NCBI GenBank assembly: GCA_029255105.1
Contig: JAQWWH010000016.1
Location: 106,345-170,344 of the forward strand
Direction of reading: 5' to 3'
Source: Flavimaricola sp.
GTDB taxonomy: Bacteria > Pseudomonadota > Alphaproteobacteria > Rhodobacterales > Rhodobacteraceae
DNA length: 64,000 nucleotides
Of this stretch, positions 61,888-64,000 are shown in pieces. Each line of letters begins with the position of its first letter. Positions within the stretch are counted from its first letter, which is position 1. The notes under the pieces are model-generated. The model did no database searches. It was given only the letters and a program-made list of their open reading frames with translations, and had not been told where the DNA came from. Both the position numbers and the translations under genes were made by a program.

Positions 61888-62199
61888 TCAAAAACGCTCG
61901 GCCCTCAGAACTTTGCAATCGGTAATGCTGACCACGCCGATATGGCGTTCAACAACCTCAAAGGCCGAGGCCAGGAGGTCGTCCAGCCGCTCTGGTCGGA
62001 TCAGACAGATCACGGCGACCATTCCGCTGGCCCGGCCAATCTGGCCTTCGCGGCTCCACTGTCCGGACCGGCCAGAGCCGCCAAGGACGGGGAGAATTGT
62101 GAAACCGGTCACCCCGGCTTTGACAAGGGCGTCAGTCAATCGGCGTTCCAAAGGGGCCTCGATGACGATCTCAACACGTTTCGCGGTATGGGTCTGCAT
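61888..62199 (-). CDS. PII-like signalling protein, probable SbtB-type partner of SbtA
   Basis: 103 aa with PII-like KRVEIVIEAPLERRLTDALVKAGVTGFTILPVLGGSGRSGQWSREGQIG...GMVAVICLI; 2 bp downstream of SbtA-like gene. Confidence 0.78.
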   Translation of the reverse strand: MQTHTAKRVEIVIEAPLERRLTDALVKAGVTGFTILPVLGGSGRSGQWSREGQIGRASGMVAVICLIRPERLDDLLASAFEVVERHIGVVSITDCKVLRAERF

Positions 62200-62201
62200 C
62201 G

Positions 62202-63182
62202 TCAGCCTCCTGCCATCATTTGGGCCACCGCGACATAAAGCGGGATACCCACCACAAGGTTAAACGGAAACGTCACCCCAAGTGACAGGGTCAGATAGAC
62301 TGAGGGGTTAGCCTCTGGCAGGGCTACGCGCATGGCGGCAGGCACCGCGATGTAGCTGGCCGACGCACTTAGAACCATCATCAGGGCAACCCCGCCAGTG
62401 GACAAGCCGATCAACATCCCAAGGGCAAGACCGGCAAGCGAACCGACGACCGGCATCGCCACGCCAAAGCCGATGGCGCCAATGCCCAGTCCCGCGCTGC
62501 GCGCACCGCGCAGGCCGCGCCCGGCCACAAGGCCCATGTCCAGCAGAAACAGGCACAGCACCCCTTGGAACGGCGAGACGATAAAGCTTTCGATCTTGGC
62601 CAAACCTTCTGCCCCTGTCAGGCCCCCGATAAAGAAGGACCCGACAAGAAGGACGATAGACCCGTTCAAAAGGATTTCCCGAAGCAACCCGGGCTCCATC
62701 TTGCCAGATCCTCCGCGGGCCATGATCCATAGGGCGGACAGAATGGCGGGGGCTTCCATCGCTGCAGCGACGGCCACCATATAGCCCTCCGCCTCAATCC
62801 CGCGACCGCCTAGAACTGACGTGGCGGTGACAAACGTTACGATCGAGATCGAGCCGTAATGTGCAGCAACCGCGGCCGCATCCGTGCGACTAAGCCCGGT
62901 CATCACGCGCAACATGGCAAAGGCAATGAAGGGCAGGCCAAACGACAGGATCACGCCCGCCAGGATGGCCAGCGCCAATTTTGCGTCAAGGCCGTGGTCC
63001 GCGACGCTCGCCCCGCCTTTGAAGCCGATAGCAAAGAGAAGATAGATGGACATGGCCTTGGCGGCAGCCTCTGGCACCATCAGGTCCGACCGGCCAAGGG
63101 CAGCGGCGAGACCGAGGACAAAGCTCAGGATGATCGGCGACAGCAGGTTGTCGGCCGCAAGAGAAAGAATATCGTTCACCAA
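62202..63182 (-). CDS. SbtA-like sodium-dependent bicarbonate transport family permease
   Basis: ~10 TM; NLLSPIILSFVLGLAAALGRSDLMVPEAAAKAMSIYLLFAIGFKGGA, VAAHYGSISIVTFVTA, LFLLDMGLVAGRGL, SASASYIAVPAAMR. Confidence 0.87.
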   Translation of the reverse strand: MVNDILSLAADNLLSPIILSFVLGLAAALGRSDLMVPEAAAKAMSIYLLFAIGFKGGASVADHGLDAKLALAILAGVILSFGLPFIAFAMLRVMTGLSRTDAAAVAAHYGSISIVTFVTATSVLGGRGIEAEGYMVAVAAAMEAPAILSALWIMARGGSGKMEPGLLREILLNGSIVLLVGSFFIGGLTGAEGLAKIESFIVSPFQGVLCLFLLDMGLVAGRGLRGARSAGLGIGAIGFGVAMPVVGSLAGLALGMLIGLSTGGVALMMVLSASASYIAVPAAMRVALPEANPSVYLTLSLGVTFPFNLVVGIPLYVAVAQMMAGG

Positions 63183-63188
63183 AAACCT

Positions 63189-63839
63189 CTAGTTCAGGGG
63201 TTCAAAGCTGTGGCGTGTCTCGTCCCAATAGCGCAGCGATCCGTCGCCGATATGGTTCCAAAGACCGTGCAGGGTCAGCCTGCCATCCTCGACCGCTTCG
63301 CGTACAAACGGAAATCCCATCAGGTTGTCGAGCGAGATCACGACCGATTCCTGTTCCAGCGCCCTCAAACGCTCGCTCCGGTCGCCTTGCGGCAGGCGAT
63401 CATATCCCGGGCGCAGGATATCCATCCAGCGGCCAATAAAACTGGTCGTCTTTTCCAACTCGGGCGCATCGCCCGAACACATATCATAACAGCCTTCCAC
63501 CCCGCCGCATCCCGAATGCCCAAGGACGATCAGGTGCGACACGTGCAAGGTGCTGACCGCATATTCAACTGCCGCCGACGTCCCGTGATGGTCACTGTCC
63601 GGGGCATAGGGGGGCACAAGATTGGCGATGTTGCGGTGAATAAAGAACTCACCCTGATCGGCACCAAAGATCGAGGTCACATGAACCCGGCTGTCACAAC
63701 AGGAAACCACCATGGCCCGCGGGCGCTGTCCTTCTTCGGCTAGGCGGCGGTACCAGCCCTGGTTCTCGGCATATGTCGTCGCTTTCCAGCCCAGATAGCG
63801 TCGGATCAGATATTCTGGCAGCGGACGCGCATGTGTCAT
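63189..63839 (-). CDS. beta-class carbonic anhydrase
   Basis: VVSCCDSRVHVTSIFGADQGEFFIHRNIANLVPPY, LIVLGHSGCGGVEGC zinc-site motifs. Confidence 0.94.
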   Translation of the reverse strand: MTHARPLPEYLIRRYLGWKATTYAENQGWYRRLAEEGQRPRAMVVSCCDSRVHVTSIFGADQGEFFIHRNIANLVPPYAPDSDHHGTSAAVEYAVSTLHVSHLIVLGHSGCGGVEGCYDMCSGDAPELEKTTSFIGRWMDILRPGYDRLPQGDRSERLRALEQESVVISLDNLMGFPFVREAVEDGRLTLHGLWNHIGDGSLRYWDETRHSFEPLN

Positions 63840-63956
63840 CGTGGGTCTCCGGTCATTTCGGTCCGTTCCAGTGCTCTTAAGCGGGAAATCGACAAAATTC
63901 GAGAGGTAATCGTGTGCAGGAAGGCCTGCCGTCAACTCTTTGAGAAGCAAAATGAC

Positions 63957-64000
63957 TCATGCTTCGGGAATGTGCTCGAACCGTCCAAACCGCCAAGAAC
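63957..64000 (-). CDS. C-terminus of an unidentified protein running off the window (tentative)
   Basis: Minus strand reads ...SWRFGRFEHIPEA*; too short to assign. Confidence 0.3.
   Translation of the reverse strand, partial: SWRFGRFEHIPEA

Follow-up and report, generated by a model that had tools for sequence, protein, structure and literature searches.

The closest described systems are the SbtA-SbtB pair of cyanobacteria and the PII-like protein CPII of Thiomonas intermedia K12. Structures of CPII (5D4N, 5D4O, 5D4P) were solved with ADP/AMP and bicarbonate. The protein is reportedly carboxysome-associated, to judge by the title of Wheatley et al. 2016. In the cyanobacterial pair, the T-loop of SbtB enters the cleft of the permease, Ser114, Tyr140, Ser324 and Ser327 of Synechocystis SbtA were proposed as HCO3- residues from docking and mutants, and the CGPxGC motif is conserved in only a subset of SbtBs (PMC8352866). 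Roseobacter denitrificans, which does not possess the Calvin cycle, obtains 10-15% of its protein carbon from CO2 by anaplerotic fixation (PMC2749216).

The window, a stretch of 64,000 nucleotides from a contig of Flavimaricola sp. (JAQWWH010000016.1, positions 106,345 to 170,344), carries a minus-strand operon with the gene order beta-carbonic anhydrase, SbtA-family permease and PII-like gene. The intergenic gaps are 6 bp (carbonic anhydrase/permease) and 2 bp (permease/PII-like gene). An earlier note made from the sequence had described three minus-strand genes at this position, and its coordinates, gaps and gene families, the last by Pfam, were all borne out (Table 1). The permease ORF has an alternative GTG start at 63179. 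A scan of genome contigs yielded 25 permease relatives, and 24 loci were scored for neighbours. The carbonic anhydrase gene precedes the permease and the PII gene follows it in 17 of these 24 loci and likewise in many genomes of the family, so that the arrangement is not a matter of chance. Fulvimarina pelagi HTCC2506, an aerobic phototroph, has the permease and PII genes at locus L016. In the window, the contig breaks off at base 64000, which leaves about 160 bp ahead of the ATG of the carbonic anhydrase gene. Scans for promoters, terminators and Rfam families gave no signal clearly above chance level. Control of the operon by PpsR was rejected on the count of TGTN12ACA motifs, which are absent from the upstream region within the window and not enriched upstream of relatives (2 of 68 loci compared to 3.2 expected).

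Table 1. Features of the operon and its upstream region in the window
Feature	Position	Strand	Remarks
beta-carbonic anhydrase	63189..63839	-	216 aa from ATG; Pfam Pro_CA 146 bits, E 1e-42
SbtA-family permease, short type, 325-326 aa	62202..63182	-	TTG start; Pfam Sbt_1 366 bits, E 2e-109
PII-like protein, CPII/SbtB group, 103 aa	61888..62199	-	Pfam P-II 53 bits, E 4.7e-14
upstream (promoter) region	63840..64000	-	cut off by contig end

The zinc and active-site motifs of the carbonic anhydrase, CxDxR (C47, D49, R51) and HxxC (H108, C111), are invariant in an alignment of 14 homologues. Together with the Pro_CA domain they identify the predicted enzyme as a beta-carbonic anhydrase, and its closest solved structures are the beta-class enzymes of a red alga, pea and E. 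coli.

For the permease, an AlphaFold model with a pLDDT of 90 retrieved SbtA structures at ranks 1 to 5, including 8zor, 7egl and 7cye, with TM scores of 0.83-0.90; the next fold was that of the bile-acid transporter ASBT at a TM of about 0.6. The Sbt_1 profile and the 5+5 inverted-repeat fold of the model thus place it in the SbtA family (Sbt_1, TC 2.A.83). Of the HCO3- residues proposed for SbtA, Ser114 and Ser324 are retained in the alignment, and the positions of Tyr140 (Y140A) and Ser327 (S327A) are occupied by alanine throughout the short permease clade. Judged from these positions, the set of four by which an SbtA proper would be recognized is incomplete in the window permease. The two alanines make HCO3- transport less likely without excluding it, the site in SbtA having itself been derived from docking and mutants. 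Because only half of the proposed residues are kept, bicarbonate is here a presumed substrate.

The PII-like protein (model pLDDT 88) gave its best profile match with CPII (5d4n, E 6.7e-13), which was also the top fold match with a TM of 0.81. Cyanobium SbtB followed at E 2.9e-8 and Synechocystis SbtB at about 1e-5. By sequence and modelled fold the protein is therefore closer to Thiomonas CPII than to cyanobacterial SbtB. Its gene shares with sbtB the permease neighbour, here at a distance of 2 bp, and this adjacency is kept in 30 surveyed genomes. A carboxysome or RuBisCO locus to go with CPII was not found in the host assembly (92.6% complete), which holds a RuBisCO-like protein only and no small subunit. 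The C-terminus VLRAERF is strongly conserved among 34 aligned homologues and takes the place of the CGPxGC redox loop, a feature that does not define SbtB. The earlier note had read the ending as TDCKVLRAERF, correctly, and had likened the protein to SbtB while setting it apart by the absent CGPxGC. The PII-like nature and the absence of the motif hold. SbtB as nearest relative does not, since CPII 5d4n scores better, and neither does the distinctiveness of the tail, since the SbtB of Cyanobium PCC 7001 ends in LRAHKF and likewise has no CGPxGC.

The window's own genome carries pufLM, encoding the photosynthetic reaction centre; this feature, and the association of the permease+PII pair with pufLM described below, go beyond the earlier note. 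In the same draft genome (92.6% complete), neither a Calvin-cycle RuBisCO nor a RuBisCO small subunit nor PEP carboxylase was found. Its PF00016 match scored 196 bits, compared to 390-472 bits for the true RuBisCOs of the survey. With this score and no small-subunit partner, a true RuBisCO in the host was rejected in favour of a RuBisCO-like protein. The 419-aa protein (L003:1483-2742, G000:C85) is encoded next to ORFs that by eye resemble a transporter substrate-binding protein and a four-carbon acid sugar kinase, and the locus probably serves sugar-acid catabolism. PEP carboxylase, absent from the host and unrelated to Sbt in the survey, was discarded as a carboxylase partner. All these absences are soft because the assembly is incomplete to the point that even rpoB was not recognizable. 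The RuBisCO-like large-subunit homologue without small subunit fits the earlier proposal of an inorganic-carbon module for anaplerosis in a non-autotroph as far as non-autotrophy is concerned; the bicarbonate part of that proposal is weakened to a presumption by the two replaced residues.

Among 151 Rhodobacteraceae genomes, one per genus, three kinds of permease were distinguished. Kind (a), the short permease with an adjoining PII gene, occurred in 30 genomes. Kind (b), a sister clade without PII, was found in six, each time beside a divergent OxyR-like regulator, and kind (c), the long cyanobacterial-type SbtA, in nine; its aligned members (L201-L203) keep the complete set of four HCO3- residues. 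One short copy (G026) runs into a contig edge and was left unclassed, and another (G080) is a fragment. The carbonic anhydrase gene is missing from some permease operons. The PII-less short permeases (L049, L051, L052, L193, L194, L199 and the plasmid copies L209 and L210) form a supported clade. Their OxyR-like neighbour is a divergent LysR regulator in 6/6 family genomes, and the plasmid copies lie near a photolyase gene (Tritonibacter) or TerC (Aureimonas), which suggests that this branch of the family is linked to oxidative stress.

Several further observations concern the surroundings of these genes. The long SbtAs (L201-L207, in G148, G010, G108, G133, G132, G075 and G026) share about 30% identity with the window permease, and some have an SbtB-like neighbour. 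On plasmid CP031752 of Cereibacter sphaeroides (L208), an Sbt permease gene has an OxyR-like gene on one side and a LysR gene on the other, with form I RuBisCO genes and cbbQ coming after the latter. An Sbt gene and pufLM share a contig at distances of 34-115 kb in four cases (G133:C3, G112:C1, G147:C24, G078:C21). Upstream of the operon in L004-L012, L014, L015, L018, L020 and L023, a conserved divergent gene for a protein of about 130 aa, with no Pfam match in the two that were scanned, is followed by an M17 aminopeptidase gene. Both were considered as functional partners and are read instead as common chromosomal context. Finally, a typical rhodobacterial operon of all three genes (66-72% identity) is present in a record titled as an Exiguobacterium profundum MAG (L025, CP059262), which is probably mislabelled or contaminated.

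The distribution of the permease+PII pair follows that of the reaction centre. pufLM was present in 24 of the 30 genomes with kind (a), compared to 57 of 151 (38%) overall (OR 10.7, p = 2.5e-7), a p value that is optimistic because the loci had already been inspected when they were divided by PII. The undivided test is safer and gave, for all Sbt genes of the family pooled, an OR of 6.6 (p = 2.4e-6; Pagel p = 2e-4 to 5e-4). pufLM was found in one of six genomes with kind (b) and in all nine with kind (c) (p = 1e-4). Correction for kinship used rpoB trees of 135 genomes, from which the window's own genome was left out because its rpoB was not found. For kind (a) against puf, the Pagel test gave p = 9e-6 to 4e-5 on three such trees, independent pairs ran 10.9 with and 0.4 against the association (median p = 0.002), and a simulated null gave p = 2.5e-4. 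Among 371 genomes that belong to the class but not to the family, and with kinship ignored, Sbt was present in 14 of 23 puf-positive and 62 of 348 puf-negative genomes (OR 7.2, p = 1.3e-5). As controls, PEPC was not significantly associated with puf (OR 0.52) and RuBisCO negatively if anything. No positive link of Sbt with RuBisCO appeared, either in the family (2 of 26 RuBisCO genomes, below expectation, raw p = 0.015, not significant after tree correction by Pagel) or in the class (3 of 27). The association has exceptions on both sides, with 33 puf-positive genomes without the pair and six permease+PII genomes without puf. No rhodopsin was found in these six, so that light is not required for the pair. 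Rhodopsin as the light source of permease-bearing, puf-negative genomes was discarded, being present in one of 12 only (G006, PII-less).

On this basis of genes, conserved order, folds, anhydrase motifs and a tree-corrected co-distribution of permease+PII with pufLM, we consider that the operon probably provides a regulated, PII-gated supply of inorganic carbon for anaplerotic carboxylation in a photoheterotroph; the substrate, the binding of PII to the permease, its ligands and the role are what we infer. The SbtA-type permease would import bicarbonate with Na+, and the cytosolic beta-carbonic anhydrase would equilibrate CO2 and HCO3-, making respiratory CO2 and imported HCO3- alike accessible to carboxylases. 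Candidate sinks are pyruvate carboxylase, malic enzyme, acetyl-CoA carboxylase and carbamoyl-phosphate synthase. The CPII-like PII trimer may sense the adenylate state, and probably bicarbonate too, and by analogy with SbtB acting on SbtA its T-loop would plug or free the permease. Light energy would spare organic carbon and allow more anaplerotic fixation, thereby raising the need for HCO3-, and this higher need would explain the accumulation of the pair in bacteriochlorophyll phototrophs without the Calvin cycle. Light as the driver is deduced from the co-distribution; against this reading, no site for a light regulator turned up ahead of the operon.

A more specific version of this reading can be put forward only tentatively. 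The CPII-type PII and the short SbtA, often with the beta-carbonic anhydrase, may constitute a bicarbonate module dedicated to anoxygenic photoheterotrophs, evolved for light-assisted anaplerosis and not for RuBisCO, in which PII would link the entry of HCO3- to an adenylate state that depends on light. The long cyanobacterial-type SbtA, puf-positive in 9/9 genomes and independently acquired, would then answer the same need in a second way.

Lifestyle or habitat, such as sunlit, alkaline or bloom water, could also lie behind the association with puf. In that case the operon would be a general adaptation to low CO2 and high pH, providing bicarbonate in CO2-depleted surface water, and phototrophy would merely share the sunlit, bloom-associated habitats. 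The six permease+PII genomes without puf fit this explanation, as do the SBT permeases of the heterotrophic SAR11 IIIa/LD12 in brackish and fresh water (PMC10030771) and the tracking of environmental pH by SbtA in autotrophs (PMC10880623). We nevertheless regard it as rather unlikely, since PEPC and RuBisCO, which are carbon-assimilation genes too, do not track puf, and neither do the PII-less, OxyR-paired permeases of the same clade.

The replacement of two of the four HCO3- residues across the clade raises the question of whether the short permease moves an anion other than bicarbonate, either a small carboxylate or a solute linked to oxidative stress, with the anhydrase as a housekeeping neighbour. 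The OxyR-like regulator adjoining the PII-less sister clade (6/6), the photolyase or TerC genes beside the plasmid copies and the operons without anhydrase would all agree with such a substrate. On the other hand, most permease+PII loci are a conserved operon that includes the carbonic anhydrase, the PII protein belongs to the CPII/SbtB group, both members of which are tied to inorganic carbon, and Ser114 and Ser324 are retained; we therefore hold a different anion to be improbable. Least probable is a remnant or auxiliary piece of a CO2-concentrating mechanism that serves the Calvin cycle, as chemoautotrophs have. This would suit the carboxysome association of CPII given in the title of Wheatley et al. 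2016 and the Cereibacter plasmid, where an Sbt permease lies beside LysR and form I RuBisCO genes. It is at odds with a host in which the large-subunit homologue is RuBisCO-like only and has no small subunit, and with the 2 of 26 RuBisCO genomes of the family that carry Sbt, a number below expectation (raw p = 0.015; not significant when tree-corrected).

Carbon-concentrating pumps are usually seen as serving RuBisCO, whereas the PII-partnered permease described here tracks bacteriochlorophyll phototrophy, and not RuBisCO, across independent lineages. If the role of a regulated bicarbonate supply is true, the operon would name the transport step that has been missing from light-enhanced anaplerotic CO2 fixation by aerobic anoxygenic phototrophs, organisms abundant in marine and fresh water, and would offer a genetically testable handle on the boost that light gives to growth yield. 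The parts are known; their combination in RuBisCO-free phototrophs (carbonic anhydrase, short SbtA and CPII-like PII) and the co-distribution appear under-described. In the open literature, as far as it was covered, nothing was found that joins SbtA, PII and aerobic anoxygenic phototrophs.

Two precedents concern light-harvesting heterotrophs. The aerobic anoxygenic phototroph 'Candidatus Phycosocius' has an Sbt permease and no RuBisCO, and anaplerosis was proposed as its role; it differs in possessing PEP carboxylase, not found in the Flavimaricola host, and the accessible part of that report describes neither a carbonic anhydrase/PII operon nor a survey of co-distribution (PMC10008586). A bias towards sbtA, that is, an enrichment of Sbt, is seen in proteorhodopsin-bearing Flavobacteriia, which belong to a different phylum and use rhodopsin instead of bacteriochlorophyll; a PII component is unreported in the portion available (PMC5932025). 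Thiomonas CPII shares about 29% identity with the window PII-like protein. Its ligands are known and those of the window protein are putative, and the Flavimaricola host has no Calvin-cycle RuBisCO with which the protein could associate. Cyanobacterial SbtA-SbtB (slr1512/slr1513; 7CYE, 7CYF, 7EGL) resembles the window operon in its adjoining permease and PII-like genes, and the two permeases agree in fold (TM 0.83-0.90) and in Ser114 and Ser324. They differ in sequence, with about 25% identity, the changes Y140A and S327A and the absence, relative to Synechocystis SbtA, of a cytoplasmic stretch of about 46 residues between TM5 and TM6. Finally, the window operon is set apart from the cyanobacterial pair by a host in whose assembly no Calvin cycle is apparent, and by the beta-carbonic anhydrase gene at its head.
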